25,520 nt of DNA from a virus, in IMG/VR virus record IMGVR_UViG_3300035459_000215, positions 1 to 25,520 of that record; one strand, 5' to 3'. The translations under genes were made by a program, and so were the position numbers. Positions 2,860 through 25,048 of the stretch are shown here, one piece after another (position 1 is the stretch's first letter; every line of letters starts with the position of its first letter). Under the pieces are notes generated by a model. The model had not been told where the DNA came from. It worked only from the letters and a program-made list of their open reading frames with translations, and made no database searches.

Positions 2860-3438
2860 TCATCCTGTGTGTCCTTTCTCCGGTTCCGCCCCCTCGGCGG
2901 GATTTGTCACGTCTTTGCTCGGCACGCGAATTCGGGTGCCGTACTTGGTCTCCAGAGTCTCCCGGGCCAGGTCGGCCAGCTCGGCCAGCCGCGCGCCCTC
3001 GGGCGCCGCCTCCGCACCCGGCGGCAGCTCGTTGCCCAGCACCCCCGGCGGCGGCAGGGCCGGGCCGGCCTGGCTGCCCGCCGGCGGCAACCGCCACTGC
3101 TGGCGATTACACATCCACAGCGCGGCCGCCTTGACGTCCGGGTGGCGGAACCGCCACAGCCGCACGATCGTGCCGGAGTCCTTATCGTAGATCTCCTCCT
3201 GGTAATGATAGCCGTTGGCCATGGCCAGGATGCTGTTGGCGACGTGGCGGTTGTCGAATTCGGCCTTGCCCTCCGAAACCGCCTGCAGAAACTCCGGATG
3301 CTCCTGTTTCCAATCGTAAACCACCCGATCGGAGACGCCCAGGGCTTTCGCGAGCTGCTCATCGGTCGCCCCGAAGACCGCACAGATGTAGCGGGCCTGC
3401 TGGGCGATCTGCTCCGAGTACTTCGGGGGACGCGCCAT
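2860..3438 (-). CDS. terS: terminase small subunit
   Basis: A 192-residue protein that would recognise phage DNA and load the packaging motor. An N-terminal helix-turn-helix is visible (ATDEQLAKALGVSDRVVYDW, about residues 24-43). It is followed by a segment typical of phage small terminases: EFDNRHVANSILAMANGYHY, then RFRHPDVKAAALWMCNRQQW. The C terminus is Pro/Ala-rich and ends with a charged tail. The ATG at 3438 shares one base with the stop of the upstream gene (TGATG), so translation is coupled; the 5-residue longer frame is less likely. It is the last gene of the minus-strand transcript, and no large terminase follows, which is unusual. Confidence 0.75.
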   Translation of the reverse strand: MARPPKYSEQIAQQARYICAVFGATDEQLAKALGVSDRVVYDWKQEHPEFLQAVSEGKAEFDNRHVANSILAMANGYHYQEEIYDKDSGTIVRLWRFRHPDVKAAALWMCNRQQWRLPPAGSQAGPALPPPGVLGNELPPGAEAAPEGARLAELADLARETLETKYGTRIRVPSKDVTNPAEGAEPEKGHTG

Positions 3439-4727
3439 CAATGGTTCCACCAATCGGTCTTTTCCTGCCGCTGCTGTCTCTCCTGCCGGCGGCGGGCCTG
3501 CACCTGCCGGATTATATCATCCCGGCCCTTGCGCTCCAAGCACTTGAATAAACGGTCATAGTGCACTTTCGTGAGCACCGCCCCGGGCCGTTTATTGCCC
3601 CGCCAGCGGCCCTTTTCCCGGGCCGTCTTGACATCATGGGCCAGGATCAGGTCCCGCTCCGCCTCCGTCAGGGCGGAGGCCACCGGCTCCTGGAAGAGTC
3701 GATCGTAGAGCGCGGCCAGGGCCCCGCACTCCTGGCGGCCGGCGGGCGATTCGGGCGGAAACTTGAATCCGAGGCCCCCGAAAACCGCCAGGACCCAGCC
3801 GTCACGCCGCGGGTCGGCCAGGGCCTTCGCCCAGGCCGGCAGGCAATCGCCGAGCGATCGAGGATCCCCGGGGCCGGACGGAGGCGATCGGCCCGGGAAA
3901 AGGCCGCCAGGGGCCTCGCCCCGCATGCCGTCGGATACCGGCGGAAAGGGCGGAGCAGCGGATAACCCGGGCGGAGGCAGAGGGTTCGCCAGGATGCGGA
4001 CGGAGCCCGGGACAACTGTGGGTATTGTCTCGCTCTCCTCGGGCCTGCTCTGGTTTGGCTCCGGGCTCTGCTCTGCTCTGGCCTGGTCGGGGCCAGAGGC
4101 CCCTCTCTCTCTGGACTCTCTCTCTTGTTTCCGCTGTTCCGCCAGGGCGCGCGCAGGATCTTCCGTTACCGCTGTCCCGCCCGCCGGGGACCTGGCCCCT
4201 TGCTCTTGCTCTTGCTCTTGTTCTTGCTTGCTTGCTTGCTTGCTTGCGTGCTTGTCTTTGGTTTCGCGCGGGCTACGGGAGCCGGTCCGCCCCCGCCGGG
4301 GCGGCTGCCACCCGCGGACCGCATCGGCCTCCTCCTCCGACAGGTAGACCGCCAGGCCACGCGCGATCATCCAATCCAGGTGCGCCTGCAATGTCGTGCG
4401 CTCCAGGCGCCACTGCCGCACCATGCGGACAGGATCGCCCCAGATGATCCCCCAATCATCCTCCTCGGCGGCCCGGGCCCAAACTGTCAGGGCAAAGACC
4501 CGCTGGCCGTCGCTGGCGGCACGCCAGAACTCCTTGCGGAACAGGTCCAGACTCAGCGGGATAAAGGGAGGATTGGCCGATTCGTGCCGCCACACGGCCC
4601 AGGGCCCCCGCGCATTGACCACGGCCAGGTAGGGATAATCCATCGAGTACCGCCGCCCGGGGTCTGCCGGCCAGGGGAAGCGCCGCAATTCCTCGTTCAC
4701 CAGGTCCGCCGCCGCCACGCTTGCCAT
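3438..4727 (-). CDS. putative phage replication initiator / helicase-loader-like protein
   Basis: A 429-residue protein in three parts. The N-terminal ~140 residues look like a winged-helix domain (FALTVWARAAEEDDWGIIWG ... LERTTLQAHLDWMIARGL), as in many phage replisome organisers. A long low-complexity linker follows, rich in Gln, Glu, Ser, Pro and Gly. The C-terminal domain (GWVLAVFGGLGFKFPPE ... GAVLTKVHYDRLFKCLERK) ends in a basic helix. The ATG at 4727 is preferred (GGAG ten bases upstream). A GTG at 4757 would add ten residues but abuts the U-run of a terminator. The stop overlaps the terS start. Function is inferred from layout only. Confidence 0.45.
   Translation of the reverse strand: MASVAAADLVNEELRRFPWPADPGRRYSMDYPYLAVVNARGPWAVWRHESANPPFIPLSLDLFRKEFWRAASDGQRVFALTVWARAAEEDDWGIIWGDPVRMVRQWRLERTTLQAHLDWMIARGLAVYLSEEEADAVRGWQPPRRGRTGSRSPRETKDKHASKQASKQEQEQEQEQGARSPAGGTAVTEDPARALAEQRKQERESRERGASGPDQARAEQSPEPNQSRPEESETIPTVVPGSVRILANPLPPPGLSAAPPFPPVSDGMRGEAPGGLFPGRSPPSGPGDPRSLGDCLPAWAKALADPRRDGWVLAVFGGLGFKFPPESPAGRQECGALAALYDRLFQEPVASALTEAERDLILAHDVKTAREKGRWRGNKRPGAVLTKVHYDRLFKCLERKGRDDIIRQVQARRRQERQQRQEKTDWWNH
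4199..4254. repeat. simple-sequence repeat inside the replication gene
   Basis: On the plus strand, three CTTGCT hexamers and one CTTGTT (4199-4222) are followed by six perfect CTTG tetramers (4223-4246), then CGTG and CTTG. On the coding strand these give the ASKQASKQ and EQEQEQEQ runs of the linker. Gain or loss of a tetramer would shift the reading frame; hexamer changes would not. Confidence 0.9.
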
Positions 4728-4757
4728 CCGTGTCGCACTCCGATTCCCGATGGGCAC

Positions 4758-4786
4758 AAAAAAAACCGGACATCCTTCCGGTCCGG
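4758..4786 (-). terminator. rho-independent terminator
   Basis: On the minus strand CCGGAC (4786-4781) and GTCCGG (4771-4766) form a 6-base stem with a 9-base loop, followed directly by eight U residues (4765-4758). It sits between the 129-residue orphan gene and the replication gene, so only read-through or antiterminated transcripts would reach the replication and terminase genes. That makes it a possible control point. Confidence 0.8.
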
Positions 4787-4829
4787 TGCACAGGGCGAAT
4801 TTGCCCGCTCGTGGTATGTCCGTGGCCCC

Positions 4830-5219
4830 TTACGGGTCCTCCGCCGACCGGCCCGCCAGAAAGTGCGCGATCGAGCGGCCGTCGTCGACGGCCCGCTCCC
4901 GGGCGAGAACGCAGCGCTGCGGCTCTCCCAGCAGGGCATCGACAACACTGCCCCGCATGGCCTCCAGCGCCGGCGGCGTCAGCGTCCGACCCTGGTCCCG
5001 GGCCGCCGCCCGGATCGCCTCATCCACCTGCTGCGCCAGAAAGGCCCCCGCCGCCCGCGGCTCGGGACATTTCGTGACCGCCCGGAGCGTCCAGAGGGCC
5101 AACCGCGTTTTGGGATCGATCCGCGTGTGCACCGCCGCGACAAACCGGTCGGACAGTCCCACGCCGGAGGCCGCCAGGGACAGGGGCGCGGCCTTAATTG
5201 ACGAGCTTTGTTTTGGCAC
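4830..5219 (-). CDS. hypothetical protein (129 aa)
   Basis: Starts at a GTG with a near-perfect GGAGG six bases upstream and overlaps the end of the preceding gene by 26 bases. It looks all-helical (RFVAAVHTRIDPKTRLALW; AGAFLAQQVDEAIRAAARDQ; LEAMRGSVVDALL) and soluble. The family is not recognised. Lying between a zinc-ribbon protein and the replication gene, it may belong to DNA metabolism, but that rests on position alone. Confidence 0.6.
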   Translation of the reverse strand: MPKQSSSIKAAPLSLAASGVGLSDRFVAAVHTRIDPKTRLALWTLRAVTKCPEPRAAGAFLAQQVDEAIRAAARDQGRTLTPPALEAMRGSVVDALLGEPQRCVLARERAVDDGRSIAHFLAGRSAEDP

Positions 5220-5484
5220 GGAAGCCTCCGCACGCCGGCAGGTTCTCCTGGACCGGCGGGTAAAACGCGTTGACGATCCATTGGACGCTCACCCCCGGGC
5301 CTGGAGAGGCTATTTTGGCCGGGACGGCGACCGGCGCCGCCGCCACCTGCGGCGGGTCCCTGCGACAAGAGAGCCGGCCCGCTTCTCCGCCGCAGTGGGC
5401 ACAGTTGCCACAGACCTCGAGGGGCGGACCCCCCGCCCACCCCGGCAGGGCCGGCAGTGCAGGATTCGATCCACAGTCGCTCAT
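5194..5484 (-). CDS. small Cys-rich zinc-ribbon-like protein (96 aa)
   Basis: The ATG overlaps the stop of the large ParB-like gene (ATGA). The pattern is CGNCAHCGGEAGRLSCRRDPP, then a Pro/Ala-rich spacer, then VNAFYPPVQENLPACGGFRAK. I recognise this arrangement (CxxC ... CRRxPP ... P-x-V ... CGxF) from small phage and bacterial zinc-ribbon proteins of unknown role. The four-Cys set is complete. The N-terminal 24 residues are Pro/Gly-rich and add little. No catalytic function should be assumed. Confidence 0.65.
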   Translation of the reverse strand: MSDCGSNPALPALPGWAGGPPLEVCGNCAHCGGEAGRLSCRRDPPQVAAAPVAVPAKIASPGPGVSVQWIVNAFYPPVQENLPACGGFRAKTKLVN

Positions 5485-7829
5485 GCCTCGTCCTCCTTCT
5501 CCGCCTGGTCGGGTTTCGCCTCGGCGCACCGGCTGCACAGATCCGGCTCGACCCACGTACAGGGCCTGCCCGTCGCCTCGACGCACTGCGCGCAGTCCTC
5601 GTCGGTGCACCCACAGACTCGGCAGACCCCGGGGAGGGCCGGGCCGCGACCCTTCCGCTTCTTCCGACCTTGGGCCTGGCCCTGGCCCGCGCCCTTCTTG
5701 GCCGGGCCGGGGTCCACCGCTACGCCGGTTTTGGCGCACGTATCGAGCGAGCAGGCCGAGCACTCCCCCGTGCAGACGGCCTCCTTCGAGCCGGCCGGCT
5801 CCTTGCGCTGGCCGCCCTTATCGTTTTCCGCGATCACGGCCGCCATCGCCTGGGCATCCGCTTGAGCCTTTCCCTCTGCGCCTTTGACCGCCGCATACTC
5901 GGCCGCCGGGTCAAACCCGAATACCGGCCCCAGTAACTCTGCCATTCGGTACGGATCGTCGGCCCTGCACTCCAGGTACCCTGTCCTCGCCGGCTCGGTC
6001 ACCAGCTTCCAAATTTCCTTTTGTCCCCTTTCGGGGTCGCCCTTGGCCCTGGCCTTGAGCACAGCCGCCAAGAGCCTCAACTCTTCGTCCCAGGGCCAGG
6101 CGATCTCGAAGGCCAGGGCGCACAGCAGCACCACGTCCGCCGGCGGCACCGGCTGCCGAGCCAAGTGCTGGCAGAAGCGAGCGAAGACCTCCTCCCGGCG
6201 CTCGGTTTCTTTGTGGCGCTCGATCTCCGCCGCCGTCCGCGGCCGGGGCGCACCCACGCCGGCACGCCCTTTCTTTTCGCCCACCTTCACCCAGAGCACA
6301 TCGCCTTTTTGCCGGCCTTTCTCCTTAGTCCCCACCACGACCAGGCCCGGGATCGCGCCCTTGTCGCCCTCTTTGGCGATCGTGATCCGGTCCGCCGTGA
6401 CCAGCGCCGGCAGGGCCTTTTTCACCCCCCTGACCCTCTCGTCGTAGGCCTCCTCGGCGCTGGGGTTATACTGCTTCGGTGGCTCCGCGAGGGATAGCGG
6501 CACAATCTGGTCGGCCTTGCCCCGCAGGGAGCAGACCGGATCGAGCAGTTTGCGGCCCTTCGTGGGCGCCTGGTACGTCTCCGCAACCTCGAGCGCCCGC
6601 CGTTTGAAATCCTCCCGGATGCTGGCGGCAATGCGATTGTCCCAGCATTTGGAATTCAGGCACCGTTCCTTCCCGCCCGAGGCCTCCTCGGGCGTCTCCG
6701 CGAACAGCAGCGGCTGCACTCCGGTCCGGTCCAGGCACCGCTCGCACCGGGTCCCGGGGCCCGTCGCGAACGGCGCCTTACCCAGATACAACAACTTGAT
6801 CTTGATCTCTCTCTCCAGCGTCCGAATTGACCAGCCGGGCATGGCATAGCCGTTGCCCCCGCGCGCCCGGCGCAGCCACCAGGCCTGCAGAGCGGCCGGC
6901 AGCCGGGCGAGCAGGACCAGGTGCCCGGCCGTCCACTGGCGCCACCGCGGCCGCTCCTCATGGTCCAGCGCCTGCGTGATCTCCTGCTGCCAATCCGCGA
7001 TCAGGCCGCGGGCGATTTGCGCGTGCTGGACGACCCAGGAGGGGGTCCGGCCCAGCTTGGAGGCCACGGCCTCGGCATCCTGGTGGTAGCGGTCCAGCCA
7101 CACGGCCGCCCGTTTGCCCTCCTCCAGCGGGGTCAGATCCTCGTGCAGGTTGCCCATGGCCACGATGTCGTAGGCCAGGTCGTCCGCGATCGTTCCCAGG
7201 TTGCGGACCGGGATGCAGTCCCGGCCCTCCAGCCGGGCCGCCGCCAGGCGGCGGTGCCCGCTGAGGACTTGCAGTACCGGCCGGCCCTCAGCGCTGTGGA
7301 CCTGGCCGCCGGTCTCCGGACGCCGTAACTCCCGCACGGTCACCGGCTCGATGACGCCGTTGGCCCGGATACTGGCCCGCAGCTCCAAGAACCTGGGACT
7401 ATTCGCGACCACCACCCGGGGATTGTCGGGGTGATCCACCAACTGCGCCGTCGGCCAGAGCTCGACCTGGACCACCTCCAGGAAAGGCCTGACCCCCTTC
7501 GGATCTTCCACGCCCGGCGGCGCCGCAAGCCACGGCACCTCCTGCGTCGTCACTCCCGTTTCCCCCGTCACCACGATTTCCGCGCTGGCTTTCCTACGCA
7601 TCGTCAGTCTCCAAAGGGGCGAATGATGATTCGCCCCTATCCATCGTTTCCGTTTCTGGTGGTTGCGGTCGTGCAGGGCCCGGGCCAGGTCTTCCCCGGG
7701 CCCGCAGCCCAGCTCGTACGCCAGCCGCCACCGCTGGCCCAGGCTCAGGCAGGCCACCCGGGCCCGGCAACCGGCCCGCGTGCGGAGGACCGGGCCGGCC
7801 AGGAGAGAGAAAGAGGGAGAGAGGTTCAT
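5481..7829 (-). CDS. ParB/Spo0J-family protein with added Cys-rich domains (782 aa)
   Basis: The ParB N-terminal domain spans about residues 118-275. It includes WPTAQLVDHPDNPR, the box II-like VLSGHRRLAAARLEG (GHRR at 191-194), the NLHEDLTPLEEG segment (227-238) and a helix-turn-helix (AEAVASKLGRTPSWVVQHAQ). A Cys4 unit follows (CERCLDRTGVQPLLF ... RCLNSKCW), as in plasmid and phage ParB relatives. A second Cys-rich module sits near the C terminus (CRVCGCTDEDCAQC ... CTWVEPDLCSRC). No ParA partner is nearby, so a DNA-binding or nuclease/regulatory role is more likely than partition. There are two credible starts: 7829, overlapping the previous stop (ATGA), and ATG 7601, with GGAG eight bases upstream; the latter gives 706 residues. 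Confidence 0.8.
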   Translation of the reverse strand: MNLSPSFSLLAGPVLRTRAGCRARVACLSLGQRWRLAYELGCGPGEDLARALHDRNHQKRKRWIGANHHSPLWRLTMRRKASAEIVVTGETGVTTQEVPWLAAPPGVEDPKGVRPFLEVVQVELWPTAQLVDHPDNPRVVVANSPRFLELRASIRANGVIEPVTVRELRRPETGGQVHSAEGRPVLQVLSGHRRLAAARLEGRDCIPVRNLGTIADDLAYDIVAMGNLHEDLTPLEEGKRAAVWLDRYHQDAEAVASKLGRTPSWVVQHAQIARGLIADWQQEITQALDHEERPRWRQWTAGHLVLLARLPAALQAWWLRRARGGNGYAMPGWSIRTLEREIKIKLLYLGKAPFATGPGTRCERCLDRTGVQPLLFAETPEEASGGKERCLNSKCWDNRIAASIREDFKRRALEVAETYQAPTKGRKLLDPVCSLRGKADQIVPLSLAEPPKQYNPSAEEAYDERVRGVKKALPALVTADRITIAKEGDKGAIPGLVVVGTKEKGRQKGDVLWVKVGEKKGRAGVGAPRPRTAAEIERHKETERREEVFARFCQHLARQPVPPADVVLLCALAFEIAWPWDEELRLLAAVLKARAKGDPERGQKEIWKLVTEPARTGYLECRADDPYRMAELLGPVFGFDPAAEYAAVKGAEGKAQADAQAMAAVIAENDKGGQRKEPAGSKEAVCTGECSACSLDTCAKTGVAVDPGPAKKGAGQGQAQGRKKRKGRGPALPGVCRVCGCTDEDCAQCVEATGRPCTWVEPDLCSRCAEAKPDQAEKEDEA
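7616..7637 (-). promoter_or_regulatory. perfect hairpin / palindrome before internal parB start
   Basis: GGGGCGAAT (7616-7624) and ATTCGCCCC (7629-7637) form a perfect 9-base stem with a 4-base loop. On the minus strand it ends four bases before the GGAG of the start at 7601. Its core closely matches a palindrome at 12449-12464. It could control translation from the inner start or be a protein-binding site. Confidence 0.6.
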
Positions 7830-8933: not shown

Positions 8934-9488
8934 TCAGAATTTGCGCCGCAGGCCAATCACCACCGTCTGCGTATTGGCCCGCTCGCCCCACATATCGTGA
9001 TCGTACTCCGCCACCGTCTGCCACACCCGCGACGGGAACGAGAGGACGCCTCCCACCAGCCAACCGGCGCTCCAATCGTAGTACCGCCAGCCGTACTGGC
9101 CGTAGAGACCCCCGTAGATGTCCCCATCGGGCAGGGTCGCTCCGCCGATCAGGCGGGACAGCAGCGAGGCATCGAGGGCGTGGGCCAGGAGATAGCCGCG
9201 CAGCGCCCACGCCGCCCCGGCACTGTCCAGGCCATCCGAGTGCATCAGGCCGACCGCCGGCTCCAGCCAGGACAGCCAGCCGCCGCTCCCGAAATCGTAC
9301 CCCGCGCGCAATTCCTCGCTCTGGCCGAAAACGGGGTTCGCCCCCAGGAGGGCCCAGCCCGTGACGCCCGCCGCGGCCCCGTTGGGATCAGCGCCGCCGG
9401 CGGCCGCCGGCGCCACGAGGGCCGCGGACAACAGGATCAGCGCCGGCGCGATCGCCCTGAACCACACATGCATCCGTTCACCGTTCAT
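8934..9488 (-). CDS. secreted, outer-membrane-barrel-like protein (184 aa)
   Basis: ATG 9488 has AAAGGA five bases upstream and overlaps the preceding stop (ATGA). A clear signal peptide is visible: MHVWFRAIAPALILLSAALV, then APAAAGGA with a likely cleavage after AAA or AAG. The mature part alternates polar and aromatic/aliphatic residues in strand-sized blocks (GYLLAHALDASLL; DIYGGLYGQYGWRYYDWSAG; TQTVVIGLRRKF) and ends in Phe, the usual signal for the outer-membrane assembly machinery. In a phage this would suggest alteration of the host surface during lysogeny, for example receptor masking. The barrel call is inferred; a periplasmic protein is the main alternative. Confidence 0.6.
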   Translation of the reverse strand: MNGERMHVWFRAIAPALILLSAALVAPAAAGGADPNGAAAGVTGWALLGANPVFGQSEELRAGYDFGSGGWLSWLEPAVGLMHSDGLDSAGAAWALRGYLLAHALDASLLSRLIGGATLPDGDIYGGLYGQYGWRYYDWSAGWLVGGVLSFPSRVWQTVAEYDHDMWGERANTQTVVIGLRRKF

Positions 9489-10478: not shown

Positions 10479-10620
10479 CGACATTGTTGGCATAGGGAAG
10501 AAGCACTGCGGTTTCCAATTGATGATTGCGAAAATGTCGCCGTTATCGAAGAGCTTGCGGCCGGCCAAAGCGGCCTTGCCAAACTGCGCGACTCTTGGCC
10601 CCGCGCCAACCGGCGGTTGG

Positions 10621-10667
10621 CTTGCATGGGGTGCAAGAGGTCGGTGGTTCAAGTCCACTCGCCCCGA
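10621..10667 (+). other. 3' part of a tRNA-Pro(GGG) gene: probable phage attachment core
   Basis: From 10621 the sequence is a tRNA from the anticodon stem onward. The anticodon arm is CTTGC-ATGGGGT-GCAAG (anticodon GGG at 10628-10630), the variable loop AGGTC, the T arm GGTGG-TTCAAGT-CCACT, the acceptor 3' strand CGCCCCG and the discriminator A10667. Upstream there is no acceptor or D arm. Phages that integrate in a tRNA gene carry exactly such a 3' fragment so that the host gene is rebuilt. The integrase gene ends 45 bases away. With phage genes on both sides, this is better read as attP than as a prophage end. The 7-base anticodon loop between its inverted stems is the likely crossover region. 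Confidence 0.75.
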
Positions 10668-10692
10668 ATGGTTCAAGTCCACCCGGTCCGAA
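10645..10692 (+). repeat. 24-base tandem duplication of the tRNA 3' end
   Basis: 10645-10668 and 10669-10692 are adjacent 24-base units that agree at 21 positions. Both start TGGTTCAAGTCCAC and end CCGAA. The first is the T arm and acceptor 3' end of the tRNA-Pro fragment; the second repeats it immediately downstream with three changes. Confidence 0.85.
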
Positions 10693-10712: not shown

Positions 10713-11759
10713 TCACGCACCCAGGCGGCTAAGGCGCGCCGTTCCTGAGACCCGCGCCTTTTCTATTGCGCTGGCCTCGGGGGCCAGGTACTTCTCGGTC
10801 GTCTCCAGGCTGCTATGTCCCATCATGCCCTGGACGCTGCGGATATCCACCCCGTCCCGCAGGCTGTTCGTCGCGAACGTGCACCGCAGGTGCTTCTGGG
10901 ACAAGCCGGTCGTCCCGGCCTCCTCCCGGATCCGCCGGAAGGGCCGCCAGTTTTCGTCCAGGCAATCCCGGATCCGGTCCGTCAGCCGGCCCCGGGAGCG
11001 CAGGTACATCAGATAGGCGTAGCGGTCCGCACTCAGGAGCAGGTACGGCTGCGCCGGCGGCAGAATCGTACGCCGGTACTCCAGGACCGCGCGGGCCTGC
11101 TGCACCAGCGGCACCCGCCGCCAGTCATCATCCTTGGGATCCCAGGCCACCGTGGCCTCGGTCTCCGCGTGGCTCTGGACGATAATCTGGTCCGCGTCCC
11201 AATCGACGTCGGCCGCCAGCAGATGAAAGGCCTCCGAGCGCCGCAGACCGGCGGTCGCCATGACGAGAACCCGGCCCTCCGTCAGGCGCTCATCCTGGAC
11301 CTGGCGGGCGGCCGCCAGCAGGGCGCCGAGCTTCTGGTCGCTGTAGACGCCCACCGGCTTACGAGGGACCTTGATCCGGGGCAGGTACTGCCACTGATCG
11401 TAGTCCGCCCGCTCCGCGATCGCGACAGTCCGGAAAGGCGACCGGACCATCTTGAGATAGCTGGCCGCCGTGACCGGTTTGAATCCGCGTTCCAGGCCCT
11501 GGCGGGCCCGGGGCGGCATCTGGTTGAGGCGGCTGACCTGGTCGATCGTCTGCGGATGGAATCCTCCGAGGAGAGCCGCTCGATACGCCACGGCGTCATC
11601 GAGACCGAATTCTCCCAACGGCCGATCCCCGCAGACGGCGATCAGTTGCTCAAACGCCAGGTGCCGGATATAGCGCGTGCCTGCCTCCTGTTCGGGATGC
11701 GTTTCGTCAAATCGTTGTAACAGTTGTGATAGAGTGATGGCGCTGCTGTCCTGTGTCAT
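10713..11759 (-). CDS. int: tyrosine-family site-specific integrase
   Basis: A 348-residue phage integrase that would recombine the phage with a host tRNA-Pro gene. The N-terminal half is an arm/core-binding region (SAM-like helices, about residues 8-125). In the catalytic domain I see Arg173 (ATAGLRRSEAFHLL), Lys209 in the beta-hairpin (DPKDDDWRRVPL), the box II segment KHLRCTFATNSL with Arg292, His315 (MMGHSSLETTEKY) and the nucleophile Tyr324. The canonical HxLR histidine is a Lys (K289-H-L-R292). The ATG has AAAGGAGGG upstream and overlaps one arm of an inverted repeat. A hairpin (CCTGGGT/ACCCAGG, 10707-10725) covers the stop codon. The adjacent tRNA fragment supports the role. Confidence 0.93.
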   Translation of the reverse strand: MTQDSSAITLSQLLQRFDETHPEQEAGTRYIRHLAFEQLIAVCGDRPLGEFGLDDAVAYRAALLGGFHPQTIDQVSRLNQMPPRARQGLERGFKPVTAASYLKMVRSPFRTVAIAERADYDQWQYLPRIKVPRKPVGVYSDQKLGALLAAARQVQDERLTEGRVLVMATAGLRRSEAFHLLAADVDWDADQIIVQSHAETEATVAWDPKDDDWRRVPLVQQARAVLEYRRTILPPAQPYLLLSADRYAYLMYLRSRGRLTDRIRDCLDENWRPFRRIREEAGTTGLSQKHLRCTFATNSLRDGVDIRSVQGMMGHSSLETTEKYLAPEASAIEKARVSGTARLSRLGA

Positions 11760-11993: not shown

Positions 11994-12067
11994 CTGCGGC
12001 GGCCGGAATCGAACCGGCGAGATGTCGAGGACTTGGGACCCCGGCCGCTCACCAGAGCAGCGCCGCA
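11994..12067 (-). tRNA. tRNA-like element, possibly degenerate tRNA (CCC-containing loop)
   Basis: On the minus strand TGCGGCG (12067-12061) pairs fully with CGCCGCA (12001-11995). The T arm GCCGG-TTCGATT-CCGGC is perfect and the total length is 74 bases, as for a tRNA. The middle is abnormal: the D arm is GCTC-TGGT-GAGC with only four loop bases, the best anticodon stem CGGGG/CCTCG encloses eight bases (TCCCAAGT), three bases link the D and anticodon arms, and the variable region is seven bases. If T is position 33 the anticodon is CCC (Gly). It could be a decayed tRNA, an unusual phage tRNA or a tRNA mimic. It lies between the stop of the 115-residue gene and the integrase. Confidence 0.5.
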
Positions 12068-13913: not shown

Positions 13914-14249
13914 ATGAGCATACTCCAAGCGACTTTTAAGGCAGTCCGGACTTCCGCTTCCGTGTTATTCGGGGCTGCTCTGATCCTTTGGCTGGTTTTC
14001 CTGGCACTGGCGGCCCTGCTCTTCTGTGCGGACGGGTGGGATGAGTTTTCCTGGTGGAGGGGAACCGAGGCGGCTGGCCATTGGATCGACGGATTTATCG
14101 GCGGAATCACGGTTTCATGCGTGATAGGGCTAATCATCTTCGACCGCGCTCGGCGCCGGTGGCAAGCGGAGTACTTCAGACGCGGCGCCTTTTACGGGGC
14201 GATCCGAGGTCAAACCGGCGAGAGCACGCTCACGGAAAAGCAGAAATAG
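13914..14249 (+). CDS. two-span membrane protein (111 aa)
   Basis: The ATG has GGGGAACC upstream. Two hydrophobic helices are visible: SASVLFGAALILWLVFLALA continuing into ALLF (about residues 14-37), and GFIGGITVSCVIGLIIF (about 60-76). A Trp-rich loop lies between them (GWDEFSWWRG) and a basic cytoplasmic tail follows (RARRRWQAEYFRRG). The hairpin topology would suit a holin or a superinfection-exclusion protein. Its last 20 bases overlap the end of the convergent transglycosylase gene. Confidence 0.6.
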   Translation: MSILQATFKAVRTSASVLFGAALILWLVFLALAALLFCADGWDEFSWWRGTEAAGHWIDGFIGGITVSCVIGLIIFDRARRRWQAEYFRRGAFYGAIRGQTGESTLTEKQK

Positions 14250-14625
14250 CCCGCTGGACGTTCCGCCAGTAACCGAGCGTCCCGGCCCGCCGGGGCCCTT
14301 TCGGCCCGCCGTTCCAACCCCGGGCCCACTGCTCGGGGCTGCCCTGAGGCCAATAGTGCAGGCAGTAGCAGTGGAACATCTCGAAGGATTTGACCGGGTC
14401 GGAGCGATCCTCCGGCCACCAGCGGATAGAGCCGGCGATCCGGTTGCAGTCGGCCACCATCTGCGGATGGATCTGGGCGATTCCGACTGCCCGGCCGCCG
14501 TCTCCGGGTTTCGTATGGGGATCGCCGCGGGATTCGATCCAGCAGATGGCCCGCCACGTGGACAAGAGCCGGGCCTCGGTAGAATTAGGGGTTGCCAGAA
14601 TCAGAGAAAGCAGTAGACTCGCCAT
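14230..14625 (-). CDS. lytic transglycosylase-like endolysin with signal sequence (131 aa)
   Basis: ATG 14625 is chosen because AGGAGG lies just upstream; the longer frame is rejected. The N terminus MASLLLSLILATPNSTEA is a signal or signal-anchor segment. The lysozyme-fold motifs follow: the catalytic-type Glu31 in WRAICWIESRGDP, GRAVGIAQIHP (about 45-54), a helix EMFHCYCLHYW (82-92) and ARGWNGGPKG (101-110) close to GTLGYWRNVQ. It would cleave the glycan chain of peptidoglycan from the periplasm. The holin-like gene lies just upstream. It ends the late operon and overlaps the convergent gene by 20 bases. Confidence 0.75.
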   Translation of the reverse strand: MASLLLSLILATPNSTEARLLSTWRAICWIESRGDPHTKPGDGGRAVGIAQIHPQMVADCNRIAGSIRWWPEDRSDPVKSFEMFHCYCLHYWPQGSPEQWARGWNGGPKGPRRAGTLGYWRNVQRAISAFP

Positions 14626-15044: not shown

Positions 15045-17594
15045 TCAGGGCAGGTTCGCCGCGGCCAGGAACGTGTGGGGCGCTGTGCCGCAGATCCAAA
15101 ACGGCGGCTGCCCGGAGGCCGGGGCGGAGTGCCAGACGACGTCGCCGACCGCCCAGGTCCCGGCCCCGGGGGCGGCCGCGGCGGCCCAGACGATCGCCGG
15201 AGTCGCGGCCCCATCATAGGGCGTGCCGATCTCGCAGAGCATCGGCGGCGTGACATAGAGATGGGCGTCCGCGGTGCCGATTTTCTGGACCCCGAAAGAC
15301 AACGTCGTTGCCGTGTGCGGGATCGCCACCAGCCGGGCGCGGAACTGCCAGAGGCCCGTGCCGGCCGCGTAGTCGGTGCGGTCGTAGCCGTCCGGCAGGG
15401 ACAGGGCCAGGTCGATATTGCCGGTGTGCTTTTCCCAACAGCCGAACCAGACCCACCGGCCCAGGAGCTGGGGATAATTGTTGGCGATGTCGAGCGTGCA
15501 GCCCCAGGCGATCGACTTGGAGTCGCTGTCGTAGAGATCGGCGATCGGCAGGCCGCGATAGGAGCCGGCGGCCCGGGTGAGCGTCCCGCCCCAACTGCCG
15601 CCGCCGGTGGCCAGCGCTGCGTAACCGAGAAAATTCTGGGGGAAGTAATTGGCCGGCTGGGCCCGGTCGCGGCGCCAGGTGTAGGCGAAGAGGTTGTCCG
15701 TCGTCGCGGTGCCCAGGCCCCCCTGGATCTCCAGCTCGTTGGCGTCCGTGTAGTTGTTGCTCATCTCCAGCCCGAGGACCTCGCCCCAGGCGTACTTGCC
15801 GGCCCGGGCGATGAGGGGGACCCCGGAGGCGTACTGGACGTTGTCGCGGACCGCCAACCGCGTCGCGGCCGCCGCCCAGATGGCGGCGTTGGGATCGGTG
15901 ACGCTGGTATTGAAATAGCAACCGGCGATCGTGACGCCGGTGCAGGGATATGAATTGTCGAACCCGGTGGCCGCGGTGTTGGCGGCCAGGATGATCTCGG
16001 CCCGCACCCGGGCCGTGACGGGACTGGTGACGGCCCAGCCGGTTGTCCCGTTGGCCTCGAAGTAAGCGTCCTGGACACTCAGGTTCCGCACGTTGAAGGC
16101 GTGGATCGCCGCCACGGCGTTGCTCTCGAAATCCGTGCTCGAGATGCAAATGCCGGCCGATCCGGCGGCCGCCGCCCCCAGGACCAGGCCGGTGCCCGTA
16201 TTGCCGTAGATCGCACTGTGTCCGATCCGCACATTGTTCGCGGCCCTCCCGAGACGCAGGCCATCAGCGCAGCCCGTGACGGTCGTATCCTCGATCCGGC
16301 TGCACCAGCAGTAGGCCGCCGACAGGCCGGCCGTCCCGGCGTTCAGGAGGCGCACGCCGGAGATCGTCCAATCGGAGGCCTGCGGGGCGTTGAGGCAATA
16401 GGCCCCGACGCGGTTGGCGTCCACCGTGAGGTCACGGAGCCCCCCGTAGATCTGGGAGGTGCCGCTGAGGTAGACGACGGCCGTCATCGTCCGGCCGGCC
16501 ACCAGGGCCGTGGCCATTTTGCCTTCGCCGCGGAGGAGGACGCCCACGGCCCCGGGGACGAGGACCGGGGTATCCACCCGATAAGTCCCCGCCGGCAGAT
16601 CGACGGCCCGGTAGCCCGCGGCCTGGGCGGCCGCCACGGCAGCGTTCAGCGCTGCGGCATCATCCATCACCCCATCGCCCCGGGCGCCGTAGTGCCGGAC
16701 GTTGAGGCCCGGGGTGTGCTTACGCAGCGACTCCCGGGCCGCGTTGGCGTCGGAGAGGCCCTGGCCGCCGTAGACGGAGACGGCATTGCCGTCGACGGCG
16801 AGGCCCGCGAACGCCGGCGCATCGTCCGTATCCAGGCCCAGCGTCGCCCGGGCGCCGGCCTGCTGGCCGGCCGTCGGGGCCCCCCGGACCGTCCCGATCC
16901 AGTTGGGGTCGACCCCCAGATCGGCCAGTCCCGTCCGCTGCTGGGCCGCGGTCGCCAGTGCCTGCACGATGGCCGTCCAGGCGGCGGTGAGGACGGTGCC
17001 CGTCTGGGAGCCGGTCGTCATATCCCCCTGGGCGTCGAACCCCAGCCACGTATGGGCCCGTACCGCCGCCGCCGGCAGGTTCATGTCGCGGACGTCCCCT
17101 TCCGGCGTGCGCAGGCTGCGGCCCAGCCAGCGGAGGAGCTGCTGGTCGCGTACCGCCGCGCGGTCCAGATCCTCCTGGACGTTCGCCAGGGACAGTTCCG
17201 CGGCGTCCGCGTAATTGGCCGCCTGGCCGTAATCGACCTCCCGGCACAGGTAGACCCGCGTCCCGGCGGCGGGCGCTCTCGTAAAGGTCACCGTCCCCCC
17301 GGGGGTCAACCACCCATCGTCATTGGGCAAGGCAACGGTGTAGTCGCTATGCTCGGTCTGGAGATCCGGGACGCCGCTGGCGTCCACGATCAGGACCCGG
17401 ACTTCGGACGAGTCCCAGACGCCGAAATGGAAAATATACGACTTGTCCGCGCCGGTGGCGTTGTAGCTGATCCAATCCGGCGTGGTGGTCACGACGCCCC
17501 GGACCGGGGTCGACCAGACCAGGGCCAGGAACAAACCGGCCGCCAGCAAGTACAGACCTCGATATCTCCGGACGCGATACTGCCGCGTGTTCAT
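15045..17594 (-). CDS. tail fibre/spike with T7-type adaptor and beta-helix domain (849 aa)
   Basis: Residues about 36-165 match the T7 tail-fibre N-terminal adaptor: YNATGADKSYIFHFGVW, DYTVALPNDD, GGTVTFTRAPAAGTRVYLCR, then a helix SLANVQEDLDRAAVRDQQLL. From about residue 298, NVRHYGARGDGVMDDAAALN is the start signature of pectate-lyase-type right-handed beta helices, which runs to roughly residue 640. The C terminus has GTWAVGDVVWHSAPASGQPP, a common phage-fibre ending. Such spikes bind, and often cut, host polysaccharide. ATG 17594 has AAGGAG upstream and adds a signal-peptide-like N terminus (YRGLYLLAAGLFLALVWST); a GTG at 17492 would give the classic fibre start but has no ribosome-binding site. 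Confidence 0.85.
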   Translation of the reverse strand: MNTRQYRVRRYRGLYLLAAGLFLALVWSTPVRGVVTTTPDWISYNATGADKSYIFHFGVWDSSEVRVLIVDASGVPDLQTEHSDYTVALPNDDGWLTPGGTVTFTRAPAAGTRVYLCREVDYGQAANYADAAELSLANVQEDLDRAAVRDQQLLRWLGRSLRTPEGDVRDMNLPAAAVRAHTWLGFDAQGDMTTGSQTGTVLTAAWTAIVQALATAAQQRTGLADLGVDPNWIGTVRGAPTAGQQAGARATLGLDTDDAPAFAGLAVDGNAVSVYGGQGLSDANAARESLRKHTPGLNVRHYGARGDGVMDDAAALNAAVAAAQAAGYRAVDLPAGTYRVDTPVLVPGAVGVLLRGEGKMATALVAGRTMTAVVYLSGTSQIYGGLRDLTVDANRVGAYCLNAPQASDWTISGVRLLNAGTAGLSAAYCWCSRIEDTTVTGCADGLRLGRAANNVRIGHSAIYGNTGTGLVLGAAAAGSAGICISSTDFESNAVAAIHAFNVRNLSVQDAYFEANGTTGWAVTSPVTARVRAEIILAANTAATGFDNSYPCTGVTIAGCYFNTSVTDPNAAIWAAAATRLAVRDNVQYASGVPLIARAGKYAWGEVLGLEMSNNYTDANELEIQGGLGTATTDNLFAYTWRRDRAQPANYFPQNFLGYAALATGGGSWGGTLTRAAGSYRGLPIADLYDSDSKSIAWGCTLDIANNYPQLLGRWVWFGCWEKHTGNIDLALSLPDGYDRTDYAAGTGLWQFRARLVAIPHTATTLSFGVQKIGTADAHLYVTPPMLCEIGTPYDGAATPAIVWAAAAAPGAGTWAVGDVVWHSAPASGQPPFWICGTAPHTFLAAANLP

Positions 17595-17607: not shown

Positions 17608-20600
17608 TCATTTGCCCCAGATCTGCTGCACCAGGGGCAGCATCTCTGGCGAGGGCAGGTTCACGGGCTTGGCCCGCGTTTTGGTCATCTCCAGGACATC
17701 TTTCCAGGGCACGAGCCGGCCGGGCTCGCCGTGGGCCAGCAGATCCGCGTTGTAGTTTTGCCAGTCGCGGCCGACGTCCATGATCTCGTCCTGGTTGCCG
17801 GTCTTGAGGGCCAGGTAGAGGCGGTCCGCCCAGCCCTGCTTGGTATGGCCCCGCAGGGCCTCCAGCGCCGCCAGCATCTGGGCCCGATCGGTCTCGCGCA
17901 CGACGCGGTCCGGCGCAAAGCCCAGGGCCTTCAAACCCGCCTCGACGGCGGTCAACTTCATCTGCCGGCCGCTGTCGAGGTCGAGGATCGAGCGGCCGGT
18001 CCGCGTGGTGGCGCCCTCGGTAGAGAGCCGGTAGGCGGCCAGGGGCGAACGGATAAACTGGGGCGTCCCCGGGAAGTCCTCCAGGAGCCGCTCGTAGTTG
18101 CGGCTGCCCAGATCCTGGACAGCACGGCCGACATCCGCCGCCAGGCCCTCCGGGACGCCGCCCAGCTCCTTCAGGAAGGCATCCGGCCAACTCTGCTTCG
18201 GCTCGGGCAGAGGCACCAGGTCCTGCATGCCCAGACTGCCGCGGAGCGAGACGTTGGCGAGGGACGGCACGCCCCGGAGGAGGATCTTCGTCGCCGTTTC
18301 GCCGGCGTATTGTTCGAGGTCCTCCTCGGGATTGCTGCCCGCGACGCGGGGATAGAGCCAGTAGAGCAGGGGTCCGGTCAGGGCCCCGCCGCCCAGGCCC
18401 ACGAGCAGCCACTGGGCCAGCTTCGAGCGGGCGAGGGCGGCATATTCGCCCTGCTCGAGCTGGTTCTTCTGCCAGGTCAGGTAATTCAGATTCCAGGTCT
18501 TGAAGAGGGCCAATGGCTTAAAGAGGCCCCGGGCGATCGCCGGGCGGTTGCCCTTGCCGTACTCGAAATGGGCCTCGGTGACGAGGTCATCGGCAGGATC
18601 GCCGCCCGCTTCGGCCGCCGGATCGGCCAGACCGGCCCGGAGGCAGGCGATATACATCGACTGGCGATTGAATCGCTCCGCCTGCCCCATAAAATCGAGC
18701 GCCGAACCCACCTTGGCCAGGGGCGTTTTCAAGGCCTGGACGGCGGCGGAGCCGCCCCGGCCGGAGATCTCCAGGGCCAGTTTCGGATCCAGGAAACCCT
18801 CGGCCTCTTTCCGGGCCAGGTAGGCCTTCTCCGCATCAGTCAGGCGGCCGGTCGCGGTATCTGCCATGGCGTCGAGGAGCCTGGCCAGGGGCCAGGTCGT
18901 GTTCTTGGACAGAACCGGCCAGCCGAGCTGGAGATTCTGGGTCAGGTTGCCCACGGCGGAGGAAACCCGGGCCCAGAGTTTGGTCGCGTAGATCAACGGA
19001 ATCAGGCGGCCCCAGTCGGTGTCATCGCCCAGCCAGTACTGCGTATCGGCGACGGCGCGGGCAAAAAGATTGGGCGTGCGGGCCGGATCGATTTCGCCCA
19101 GGGCCCGCGAGAACCCGAGCGCCGCTTCCATCTTGGTGATGGAGCCCGCGGCCCCCTGGAGATACTGGGCGAACGGCCGGCGGAGATCGCCCGTCCAGCC
19201 CGGGGTCTCCTCGCGGTGGATGAAGTGCCCCCCCCAGCCCTTGGCCTTCCACCAGTCCAGAACCGCCTGGCCGATTGCGTCTTTCTGCTCGACGGTGATC
19301 CCCGGGATCTGGCCGGCTTGCGCGTTGACCCGGTCAAATAGATGCTCCAGGACCGACTGCACCGCCGGCAGCGTGCTCGCCTGGTAGGTCTCGCTGGCGG
19401 TTTTCGTCGCCCTGATCGGGCCGATCACCTCCGCCTCGGGATAGCGCTCCCGGAGGACCTCCATCTCCGTCTTACGCTGGAGGTATCCGATCTGGCCCTT
19501 ATAGAGCGTGGCCTTGGTCGCGGGATCGCGGACGATCACGACCCAGTCGCCGCCGGCGTGCGTGGGCCAGGTGTGGGGGATATAGTTGCCGATCCGGCCG
19601 CGGAACTGGTCGATCCACTCCTGCCGGACGCCGAGATCCTCCATCTGCTTGACGTAGAGTTCCCCGATGTCGTCGAGCGAACGGCGAAAGGCCTGGGCCC
19701 CGGCCCGCTGCTTCTCCGTCAGGGCCGCCTGCAGGGCGGCGTGCAGTTTACCGTTGCCCGGGCCCCCGCCGATCGCGACCAGGAGCTGGTCCTGGTCGAT
19801 CGCGACCAGGAGCTGGTCGACGGCCGTGCGCTCCTCGTCCGTCAGGTCGAAATAGGGTTTGCTCTTTTCGGCCAGGGCCTGGACCATAATGCGGAATTTC
19901 CGCTGGCGCTCGACCTGGAGGTCCCGCAGGGGCGCGTACTGCGGGAACTGGATCGCCCGGTCGTGCGGCAACTGAAACGCGCCCCAGAGCTTCCAAAGGT
20001 CCTTATCCGCGAGGGGTTTGCCCGTGTCGGCATCGTGGTAGAGGCCCAGGTGATCGAGCACCTGCCGGGCCAGGGCCAGTTCCCACGGATAGGGCGGCCG
20101 CTCGGGGTCCGGACGCGCGGGCAGCCCGGCGGCGGCCGGCGGGGCCGGCGGCACGGGCGGCAGATCGGTCGGCGGCCGCTGGCCGGCGTAGACCTGGCCC
20201 GCATCCCGCACTTCCCGGGTCTCGGCGTCGGCGATCTGGTCGCGGAGCTCGGTTTCACCGAGGGCCCGCTGCGGCGCGGCGGGGGCCGGCGGAGACTCGG
20301 CGGGCGGGCGCGGCTGGCTGGTCAAATCATAAAAGGCCTGCCAGGCGCTCAGGCGGTGCCACTCATCAACCAGGGATTTATACAGGCCCCGGGGACCGCC
20401 GGTGCTCTCGCCGGCGGCGTAGCGGGCCAGCCAGGCCGCGCTGGCCGGGGCGGTCGGACTTTCCAGGGCCTGGCCGTAGCGGACGAAGAAGCGCTTATAG
20501 GTCATACTGCCGGGGTGCGGCTCGCCCTCGAGGGCGGCCGGGGGCTCCGGCTCTTTCGTCAGCGTCGCGACGGCATCGCCCACCCATTGGCGCAGATTCT

Positions 20601-22821
20601 CGCCCGTAGCTCCGGGCACCTTCGTCCCCAGCCGCCGGGCCAGGGCGGCCAGATCCGGCTCCGAGGCGCCCTCGAGGGCGCGGGCGTAATCCTGGAACGT
20701 GAATTCGGTGGGGGCGATGAAGCGTTCCCGGGCCTGGGCCGCGGCCTCGGCCTCCGCCGCGGCGAGGGCTTGGCCCCAGACCCCGGCCCCCTCCGGCGCC
20801 GGGGGCGTCGAAGTATCCGATTTGGCCGGCAGCGCCGGGAGCGGGGCCTCGGCCGCACCGGGTCGGTGAAGGGCGTCGGCGTAGAGCCGGTTGGCCAGCG
20901 CCTCATAGACTACGAGGCCACGCTCGACACCTTCCAACTGGTCCGGATGATCCGCCACGATGATGTCATTGGCCGCAATGTCTTGCCAATTCCGCGCGAC
21001 GAGTCTCTCGCCCGTGCCTCTATCCACCTCGAGGACGTCCCCCGGCTTCATGCCGGTGACAGCGGCGAGGCCGCGCTCGAAGCGCCGCTGCTCTTCCAGC
21101 GGCAGGTTGGGGTAGACCTCGCGCCAGAAGCTGTCGTGGACATCCCTGGGCGAAACGCCTTCGACCTCCAATTGGTCGAGGACGTTCTGGCCTGTCCCTT
21201 CCAGAGCCGCCTTTTTCAGAGCGGCGGCGATGGTATTCTCAACTCGCCCGCGGCCCTCCGATCCAATCACAGCGCCGGAGGGCGATTCCGCGGCGGTGGC
21301 GGCCCCGGGGGCTGCGGGTAAAGGGGCGGGGGCTACCGGAGTAGCCCCCTGGGCGGCCTCGGGCGCTAACGACCCTTGCGCCCCTTGCATTTCTTGGCCA
21401 TGGGTCAGTGCCTTTCCGGGAAGGACCGCCGCTGTTGATTCGGCCGCGGCGCTTGCCGATCTTTTTTGGGCGACCTGGGCGACGAGGTGGGCGGAGGCGG
21501 GCAGGGCCAGCGTGGCCGCCTCGACCGCCAGCCGCCGGATCTCGAAATCCCGCGTCAGGCCCGCCCGGAGGCGCTCCAGGGGACCGGCGGCGGGACCCGC
21601 CCCGAAATCCTGCGTCCCGGTCAGACCCTCCAGGACCGTCTGGAGACGGTTCTCGCCCATCTGATTGAGGATCCCGTCGAAACCGGCCTTACGGAAAAAG
21701 TCCGAGGCGAACGTCGCCGCCGCGCCGGTCTCGGGATGCGTGGCCAGGTACATCCGCTCCAGGCCATCGTACAAGGCCCGCCCGAAGGGCAGCCGGGCCA
21801 GCGTGCTCTCGACCGTGGGCAGGGCCGCCCGGGCCAGAGGAGCGCCTACTTCCTGGGTCGCGGCCTGGGCCGCGGACTGGATCACCGCCTCGCCCCAGCC
21901 TTTGAGGATCGAGGTCGCCCAGGATTCGGGATCAACCGCGATCGAAAGCTCGCCCTCGGGCCCGATGGAGAGGGCCGGGATGCGGCGCTGGAGGATTTCG
22001 TCGGCGATATGGTTCGGCAGGCCCAGCGTCGTCCGCGTCAGTGCCCCGCCGGTCCAGCCGGCGGTCGCGAGCAGGCCCCGGCCCGCGGTGGTCTTGGCAT
22101 AGCCCTGGAGAGTCTTGGCCCCGATCTCGCGGGCCGTCTCGCTACCGAGCTGGGCCAAGCCGCCCGTCAGGGCGAACTCGATCATCCAGGCCGGCATGTA
22201 GGACGCCCCGTCGAAGACGGCCGCGGCGAAGGTCTGGCCCCGCTCCGCGACCTCCTGGCGCTTCAGCAGCCAGCTTTCGACCCTTTGGATATCCCGATCC
22301 CGCAGGGCCGAGGCGGAGGCCTCGGGCCGGGGGCCGGCGCCCGCCAGGACCATCTGCCCCGGCGCGGCGGTGACGATCGGCTCGGGGTAATTGCCCTGCT
22401 TGAGGCGCGTGACGGCGAGGAGCAGATCGGCGGTCTCGCCGGCGGCGGTCCCGCTGAACGGCACGCGGTTGGCCCAGTCCAGGGCGTCCATCCGCGTGAC
22501 CTGCTCCCGCAGGGTGATAGGATTGGGCCGGCCCGGGCCCGGCGGAGCCGATCCTACGTCGGCCGGATCGGCGGGCCGGGCCCGGAACCAGTCGTAATCC
22601 GCCTGGATCTCAGGCCCAAAACGTTCGACCGTCGGCCGGGGAATATTGAGCTCGTCGGACAGGCCCAGGACCTGCCGCGCCTGTTTCTCGGGATCGGCGG
22701 CCAGGGCCGTGTCGGAGGCAGCGACGTAGGCAGAGAGAGGGCCGCCGGCGACGGACGGTGGGGCAGCCGGCGCCGGGGCGGGGGCGGTCTGATCAACGAA
22801 TTGGCTCAGGAGACCGGCCAT
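17608..22821 (-). CDS. large polyvalent-type internal virion (ejection core) protein (1737 aa)
   Basis: It occupies the T7 gp16 position, after the 565-residue core protein and before the fibre. The N-terminal region has helical segments, including PTVERFGPEIQADYDWFRAR and a hydrophobic stretch MIEFALTGGLAQLG. The middle is Pro/Ala-rich linkers. The C-terminal ~500 residues contain LWARVSSAVGNLTQNLQLGW, FMGQAERFNRQSMYIACLRA, LFKTWNLNYLTWQKNQLEQG and a membrane-like helix LLVGLGGGALTGPLLYWLYP, a pattern known from large polyvalent proteins of phages. T7 gp16 carries a transglycosylase domain; none is evident here. It would be ejected into the host to form the DNA channel. The start follows the preceding stop by one base. 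Confidence 0.75.
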   Translation of the reverse strand: MAGLLSQFVDQTAPAPAPAAPPSVAGGPLSAYVAASDTALAADPEKQARQVLGLSDELNIPRPTVERFGPEIQADYDWFRARPADPADVGSAPPGPGRPNPITLREQVTRMDALDWANRVPFSGTAAGETADLLLAVTRLKQGNYPEPIVTAAPGQMVLAGAGPRPEASASALRDRDIQRVESWLLKRQEVAERGQTFAAAVFDGASYMPAWMIEFALTGGLAQLGSETAREIGAKTLQGYAKTTAGRGLLATAGWTGGALTRTTLGLPNHIADEILQRRIPALSIGPEGELSIAVDPESWATSILKGWGEAVIQSAAQAATQEVGAPLARAALPTVESTLARLPFGRALYDGLERMYLATHPETGAAATFASDFFRKAGFDGILNQMGENRLQTVLEGLTGTQDFGAGPAAGPLERLRAGLTRDFEIRRLAVEAATLALPASAHLVAQVAQKRSASAAAESTAAVLPGKALTHGQEMQGAQGSLAPEAAQGATPVAPAPLPAAPGAATAAESPSGAVIGSEGRGRVENTIAAALKKAALEGTGQNVLDQLEVEGVSPRDVHDSFWREVYPNLPLEEQRRFERGLAAVTGMKPGDVLEVDRGTGERLVARNWQDIAANDIIVADHPDQLEGVERGLVVYEALANRLYADALHRPGAAEAPLPALPAKSDTSTPPAPEGAGVWGQALAAAEAEAAAQARERFIAPTEFTFQDYARALEGASEPDLAALARRLGTKVPGATGENLRQWVGDAVATLTKEPEPPAALEGEPHPGSMTYKRFFVRYGQALESPTAPASAAWLARYAAGESTGGPRGLYKSLVDEWHRLSAWQAFYDLTSQPRPPAESPPAPAAPQRALGETELRDQIADAETREVRDAGQVYAGQRPPTDLPPVPPAPPAAAGLPARPDPERPPYPWELALARQVLDHLGLYHDADTGKPLADKDLWKLWGAFQLPHDRAIQFPQYAPLRDLQVERQRKFRIMVQALAEKSKPYFDLTDEERTAVDQLLVAIDQDQLLVAIGGGPGNGKLHAALQAALTEKQRAGAQAFRRSLDDIGELYVKQMEDLGVRQEWIDQFRGRIGNYIPHTWPTHAGGDWVVIVRDPATKATLYKGQIGYLQRKTEMEVLRERYPEAEVIGPIRATKTASETYQASTLPAVQSVLEHLFDRVNAQAGQIPGITVEQKDAIGQAVLDWWKAKGWGGHFIHREETPGWTGDLRRPFAQYLQGAAGSITKMEAALGFSRALGEIDPARTPNLFARAVADTQYWLGDDTDWGRLIPLIYATKLWARVSSAVGNLTQNLQLGWPVLSKNTTWPLARLLDAMADTATGRLTDAEKAYLARKEAEGFLDPKLALEISGRGGSAAVQALKTPLAKVGSALDFMGQAERFNRQSMYIACLRAGLADPAAEAGGDPADDLVTEAHFEYGKGNRPAIARGLFKPLALFKTWNLNYLTWQKNQLEQGEYAALARSKLAQWLLVGLGGGALTGPLLYWLYPRVAGSNPEEDLEQYAGETATKILLRGVPSLANVSLRGSLGMQDLVPLPEPKQSWPDAFLKELGGVPEGLAADVGRAVQDLGSRNYERLLEDFPGTPQFIRSPLAAYRLSTEGATTRTGRSILDLDSGRQMKLTAVEAGLKALGFAPDRVVRETDRAQMLAALEALRGHTKQGWADRLYLALKTGNQDEIMDVGRDWQNYNADLLAHGEPGRLVPWKDVLEMTKTRAKPVNLPSPEMLPLVQQIWGK
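19771..19818. repeat. in-frame tandem duplication in the 1737-residue gene
   Basis: GATCGCGACCAGGAGCTGGT begins at 19771 and recurs at 19798; 21 bases are identical at a 27-base offset. It encodes neighbouring copies of DQLLVAI in a charged helical region. Confidence 0.85.
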
Positions 22822-24532: not shown

Positions 24533-25048
24533 TTACGCGTTATAGCTGCCCGTGGGGACGCCGCTGTAGGTGGCCTGGGGCGCGGTGCTCGCGGGCCGCG
24601 GAACGAGACGACCGACCTGCAGGAGTGTGCCGATCGCCCCGAGCGTGCCGGCCTGCGAGGCGGCGTCGGCGTCCGACAAGCTGGCCAGGATCCCGGCGTC
24701 GAGACGCCGCTGCGTCACCGCGCCCGCCCGCCGCTCGTAGGCCGCGGACAGCTCCACCCGCCGGGCATTGTCCACCAGACTGGCCAGCGGCGTGCCGGTC
24801 AGGGCCAGGCCGCTCTGGGCCGTCTCGGCCTCGACGCCGCCGAGCAGGCCCGAGCCTTGCTCGTAGATCTGCCGCACGCGGTAGTCCGTCTGGTAAGCCG
24901 TCTCCGTTTTCTCCAGGCGGATCTGCTCCGCCCGCTGCTGGGCCGCGGCGGCTGCGGCGTCCCCGGCGGCATACTGGCCGTAGGCCGAGACCCCCAGCCC
25001 CGCTACCGAGGTCGCCAGACCGGCAATCGCAATCGTCTCCAGACCCAT
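24533..25048 (-). CDS. small internal virion protein, T7 gp14-like (171 aa)
   Basis: The N terminus is a Gly/Ala-rich hydrophobic helix (IAIAGLATSVAGLGVSAYGQ) running into a long Ala/Gln/Arg helix (AAAAAAQQRAEQIRLEKTET). A second Ser/Ala/Leu helix region follows (GTPLASLVDNARRVELSAAY). This is the typical layout of gp14-like proteins, which insert in the outer membrane during DNA ejection. The ATG shares one base with the upstream stop (TGATG). The C terminus is Pro/Thr/Ser-rich. Confidence 0.65.
   Translation of the reverse strand: MGLETIAIAGLATSVAGLGVSAYGQYAAGDAAAAAAQQRAEQIRLEKTETAYQTDYRVRQIYEQGSGLLGGVEAETAQSGLALTGTPLASLVDNARRVELSAAYERRAGAVTQRRLDAGILASLSDADAASQAGTLGAIGTLLQVGRLVPRPASTAPQATYSGVPTGSYNA

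Follow-up and report, generated by a model that had tools for sequence, protein, structure and literature searches.

The window analysed here is an entire linear virus record of 25,520 bases, a single metagenomic contig, whose right half carries on the minus strand a structural block of podovirus type. The phage that carries the fibre gene of this block is temperate and podovirus-like. The features that concern us are the following.

minus strand, right half: phrog_4177-like protein, a member of the structural block
24533..25048, minus strand: gp14-like internal virion protein (phrog_418, E 2e-9), with a relative in contig L130
minus strand: 565-aa ORF, occupying the gp15 place
17608..22821, minus strand: 1737-aa ORF, internal virion (ejection) protein-like by its position (gp16 place), the order being that of L130
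17602..17608, minus strand: Shine-Dalgarno (SD) sequence AAAGGAG, which shares bases with the stop of the gene before it; -8.5 kcal/mol with the anti-SD
15045..17594, minus strand: tail fibre / tailspike gene, 849 aa, starting at ATG 17594
17592..17594, minus strand: ATG start codon of the fibre gene, with SD, a 13-nt gap and weakly structured RNA
17556..17594, minus strand: n-region MNTRQYRVRRYRG, five Arg and no acidic residues (translation and rule-based scan)
17514..17555, minus strand: h-region LYLLAAGLFLALVW, core at residues 14-26 (rule-based scan)
17496..17513, minus strand: c-region STPVRG, with a possible signal peptidase I site after Gly33 (-3 Val, -1 Gly)
17490..17492, minus strand: GTG codon 35, a weakly supported alternative start; SD of -5.5 kcal/mol, structured RNA
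17115..17495, minus strand: T7 gp17-type adaptor domain, residues 34-160 (PHROG, AlphaFold/Foldseek, profile)
15921..16706, minus strand: pectate-lyase-like right-handed beta-helix, residues 297-558 (PF12708, E 7e-13; PF13229, E 1e-7)
minus strand, listed after the fibre gene: small holin-like ORF of the structural block
14230-14619: SLT-domain lysozyme-like gene, the last listed in the block
10713-11759: integrase gene

A matching gene order was found in contig L130 (IMGVR_UViG_3300046723_000024), where a GNAT-like gene, a gp14-like gene, a gp15-like gene, a 2270-aa gp16-like ORF and a fibre gene follow one another. With the phrog_418 protein and the large ORFs upstream of it, the window fibre gene is placed after the internal virion protein genes, as is the case for T7-type fibres. 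A family search with the 1737-aa ORF gave no match, and no second fibre gene was seen within the 25.5-kb fragment.

The first-pass annotation of this DNA, made from the letters alone, had placed a T7-type adaptor domain directly behind a signal-like leader, and this was borne out. PHROG tail families 13893 and 1640 align from residue 35, which corresponds to position 3 of the profile, and a profile built from four adaptor domains found Dpo31/Dpo36 in the PDB (E 2e-22). In an AlphaFold model computed with 20 relatives as input, residues 41-110 mostly have a pLDDT above 95, and residues 1-33 are unstructured with a pLDDT of about 52; such a leader ahead of a domain at about 95 is what would be expected if the leader were removable. 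The top Foldseek match of the adaptor model was the Carin-1 fibre (8ck1, E 1e-8), and T7 gp17 was among the significant matches (7boz, E 3e-4, and 7ey9). Residues 34-160 match the T7 gp17 N terminus, Carin-1 Dpo36, BPP-1 Bbp9 and BcepC6B gp18 in sequence profile and in fold, so that, by sequence and predicted fold, the domain is assigned to the T7-type adaptors. The beta-helix further downstream also matches mannuronan C5-epimerase chains, and the only phage relative found for its C-terminal part is the tail protein of Escherichia phage N7. By fold class the fibre fits a beta-helix tailspike depolymerase, with putative polysaccharide cleavage.

The same annotation had proposed a start with a strong ribosome-binding site at 17594, and had raised the possibility that GTG 17492 gives rise to a second form from the same gene. 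The former proposal was upheld. The TGA of the preceding gene (17610-17608) lies 13 nt from ATG 17594, the spacing between AAAGGAG and the ATG is 7 nt, and the anti-SD pairing at this site was matched by only 4.7% of 193 internal start codons taken from three structural ORFs. The pairing at GTG 17492 was attained by 24% of these internal codons, and is thus not better than that of many codons within this GC-rich gene. The RNA around ATG 17594 is open and weakly structured (-11.3 kcal/mol over 61 nt) and that around GTG 17492 is strongly folded (-30.1 kcal/mol over 71 nt), with neither folding energy distinct from that of its own shuffled sequences. A second form from GTG 17492 is therefore possible but weak. 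The leader has a GC content of 0.62, 0.50 and 0.82 at codon positions 1 to 3, resembling the coding sequence of the window, and the third-position value of its 34 codons (0.82) may be compared with 0.89 in the fibre body. Judged by these signals, ATG 17594 is the single well-supported start of the fibre gene, and the leader is probably translated.

The leader comprises 33 residues, MNTRQYRVRRYRG-LYLLAAGLFLALVW-STPVRG|VVTTT, and has the basic n-region and the hydrophobic core (13-14 residues) that had been described for it. In a rule-based scan only, it follows the plan of a Sec / signal peptidase I substrate (charge +6, LYLLAAGLFLALV, PVRG), and we take it to resemble a cleavable Sec signal peptide. 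The description of a cleavage-like segment held in part: the candidate cleavage site is confirmed only as a permitted pattern, with Val at -3 and Gly at -1; the combination of Arg at -2 and Gly at -1 is below ideal for cleavage. Two other export routes were considered and rejected. The S/T-R-R-x-hydrophobic-hydrophobic motif of a Tat signal is absent, as the leader reads V-R-R-Y-R-G, and there is no lipobox Cys at +1 for signal peptidase II, nor any Cys in the first 60 residues.

We estimated how readily such a leader arises by chance, using a simple and crude rule for the three-part signal-peptide plan. In a 50-kb region of E. coli K-12, tolB, cpoB, ybgS, modA and ybhC, which we class as encoding exported proteins, passed the rule, and one lipoprotein, pal, was missed; of the other 39 proteins three passed, two of them membrane proteins and the third cytosolic. 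Of the 848 start codons in the window, 15 passed the rule, and some of these are probably genuine signals; the pass rate was 0.75% for Markov sequences and 7.7% for shuffles of the leader's own residues. When 100,000 random 115-nt gaps were simulated, an in-frame signal-like leader appeared in 169, and in only 10 (about 1 in 10,000) did such a leader come with an SD that equalled or exceeded the one at ATG 17594, suggesting that a chance origin of the leader together with its start is unlikely.

For comparison we collected related fibres from annotated phages (BPP-1, BcepC6B, HTVC034P and MD07), from 27 viral loci and from 80 more, by alignment-based scans and, in the case of L130, through its gp14-like gene. 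This gave 93 distinct complete adaptor N termini, a sampling that leans to a few podovirus groups. An initial DNA motif scan had returned mostly chance matches and four real fibres; no relatives came out of scans of viral contigs in which the fibre, the 1737-aa ORF or the SLT gene served as query, and a genome scan found only Prevotella beta-helix fragments. Identities to the window fibre were about 23-38%, and no close relative was among the relatives found.

All 93 relatives start at the adaptor domain, with M/V/L-T-V/I-S-S-T or a similar sequence, and a signal-like leader was found in none of them, nor in the syntenic L130, whose fibre begins MAVTSEISS with a TAG five codons upstream. An in-frame stop lies within 34 codons upstream in 85 of the 93. 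In the remaining relatives with a possible upstream start the leader is not signal-like, and three possible longer upstream frames (L009, L010 and L073) have weak start sites and are likewise not signal-like. The first-pass annotation had turned to conservation of the first 34 codons in relatives as a check on its export proposal, and here the outcome went against it: these codons are absent or interrupted by a stop in every relative found, so that conservation or selection of the leader is not demonstrated. In an alignment of 21 N termini, the canonical Met of the relatives corresponds to Gly33 of the window fibre, and the sequences align ungapped (GVVTTTPDWISY over MTVSSTISREQY); the start of the PHROG tail families, like that of every relative, falls at window residues 33-35. 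The T7-type members found thus begin at the domain, usually with its start Met, whereas the window fibre carries 33 residues ahead of it and its Met codon is gone. Since the relatives are distant and without a leader and the canonical Met has been lost, a private acquisition is indicated and a misread start is disfavoured; an assembly error by a simple frameshift is also unlikely, given the loss of that codon and the seamless frame. By sequence comparison, the leader is private to the window phage among the relatives checked. As Gly33 stands in the place of the canonical Met, a cut after it would give back the N terminus that fibres ordinarily have.

The explanation that we favour, to which we give a probability of about 0.5, is that the fibre gained a 33-residue Sec-type signal peptide by a fusion exactly at its start codon, with predicted export and cleavage. 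The fibre would be translated from ATG 17594, the leader would carry it over the inner membrane, and signal peptidase I would cut after Gly33 to leave VVTTTPDW..., the residue-for-residue counterpart of the ordinary TVSST... N terminus after removal of Met. The substrate of the exported beta-helix spike would then be polysaccharide at the cell surface or outside the cell, and the spike could still be taken up into virions once lysis mixes the compartments. The complete scheme, in which cleavage recreates the native N terminus and the product of one gene serves as a depolymerase in the periplasm or outside the cell, yet can be built into virions when the cell lyses or later, we put forward only tentatively. 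Against a reading that involves export, a large trimeric beta-helix would be a difficult cargo for Sec, the leader has no Tat motif and, with no second fibre gene in the 25.5-kb fragment, export of the sole fibre would seem to starve virion assembly.

Other fates of a translated leader have to be weighed against this. The leader may be without a role, a chance or recent N-terminal extension which is tolerated by virions or degraded; its absence from relatives agrees with this, but signal-like anatomy and a strong SD come together by chance at only about 1e-4 and the gene no longer has the canonical Met codon, and we regard this as rather unlikely. We are a little less inclined still to see in the leader an uncleaved signal anchor, or something like a signal-anchor-release sequence, by which the fibre would be tethered to the inner membrane until lysis and assembled or stored there. 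Signal-anchor-release export is common among phage lysis proteins (PMC6116005; PMC3765740) and the -2 Arg and -1 Gly are not ideal for cleavage, but an h-region of only 14 residues is short for a stable membrane anchor, and the Pro-containing, cleavage-permitting c-region stops exactly at the canonical N terminus.

The remaining alternatives concern the start codon or the ownership of the gene. Two products, one initiated at ATG 17594 and exported, the other initiated at GTG 17492 and kept in the cytoplasm for the virion, would supply the virion form that a fragment with a single fibre gene needs, and the GTG is in frame and no more than two residues away from the canonical start; its commonplace SD score and its position in strongly folded RNA nevertheless make this improbable. 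If only GTG 17492 or another internal codon were used, the 102 nt would be a leader-like untranslated spacer; the product would then match all relatives, and BPP-1 and BcepC6B have a spacer of about 60 nt ahead of the fibre gene, but the best SD and open structure are at ATG 17594, and the leader frame has a coding-like third-position GC and encodes a signal-like peptide, so that we consider this very unlikely. Least credible of all is a decaying prophage whose spike was taken over by the host as a secreted polysaccharide enzyme, for which WceF of Pantoea stewartii, a host-encoded tailspike-like enzyme bearing an export signal, offers a parallel (PMC7949094); against this, the window gene is flanked by intact internal-virion-like genes on one side and lysis-type genes on the other, arranged as is usual in phages.

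Searches of an open-access library turned up no description of a signal peptide on a T7-type fibre. The idea of an exported phage-like spike nevertheless has precedent in WceF, the Bdellovibrio MAT fibres and PblB. Like WceF, the window fibre is beta-helix tailspike-like with an N-terminal export-like signal; however, in WceF the signal is of Tat type and the gene belongs to the host, within an exopolysaccharide locus (PMC7949094), whereas the window leader is without a Tat motif and its gene is inside a phage structural operon. In the Bdellovibrio MAT fibres a signal peptide is followed directly by a beta-rich domain of about 130 aa and the fibre; the likeness to the window fibre is in layout, and the MAT fibres are encoded by bacterial genes serving the predator (PMC10769870). 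PblB, a prophage-encoded tail-fibre homologue of pneumococcus and S. mitis, has a putative signal peptide in one strain, as in the window fibre, although it is a Gram-positive siphophage protein and not of T7 type, and S. mitis PblB is drawn without a signal peptide, its release there depending on lysis (PMC4508584). Secreted endolysins, such as Lys44 of fOg44 and the SAR endolysins, are also phage products made with a Sec signal, but they are lysis enzymes and not virion parts (PMC6116005).

In the usual view, tailed-phage fibres fold and are added to the virion inside the cytoplasm. If the leader works, this phage would export one of its own virion parts, and the exported fibre would be a free polysaccharide enzyme, a component joining virions at lysis, or both. 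Export ahead of assembly would imply either that the last steps of assembly can take place during or after lysis, or that an adhesin is spent on clearing or altering the surface polysaccharide of the phage's own host. Because the fusion lies exactly at the canonical start, the idea is directly testable.

Several other features were observed. The SLT-domain lysozyme-like gene (14230-14619) has a hydrophobic start, MASLLLSLILATPNSTEA, behind a strong AGGAGGT, so this lysis enzyme may be exported too. Near the integrase gene, positions 8934-9488 encode an aromatic-rich 184-aa protein with a signal-like start and a terminal Phe, which resembles a small outer-membrane barrel; a family search with it gave no match. 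Beside the integrase stop, positions 10618-10692 resemble the 3' half of a tRNA from the anticodon stem to the acceptor (GGCTTGCATGGGGTGCAAG...GGTTCAAGTCCACTCGCCCCGA), and the end of this sequence recurs in a second copy of 24 nt; this is probably an attachment site. The window has two tRNA genes, for tRNA-Pro(TGG) and tRNA-Trp(CCA) (576-649 and 11994-12067, respectively), and encodes a ParB-like protein (5481-7829) that has several Cys-rich motifs and, at 782 aa, an unusual length for such a protein in a phage, exceeding the ordinary size. Among the contigs with related fibres, some carry tandem pairs of T7-type adaptor fibres: L024 (1868-3187 with 3197-5311), L025 (2630-3961 with 3971-5392) and L026 (1971-3968 with 3923-6205).
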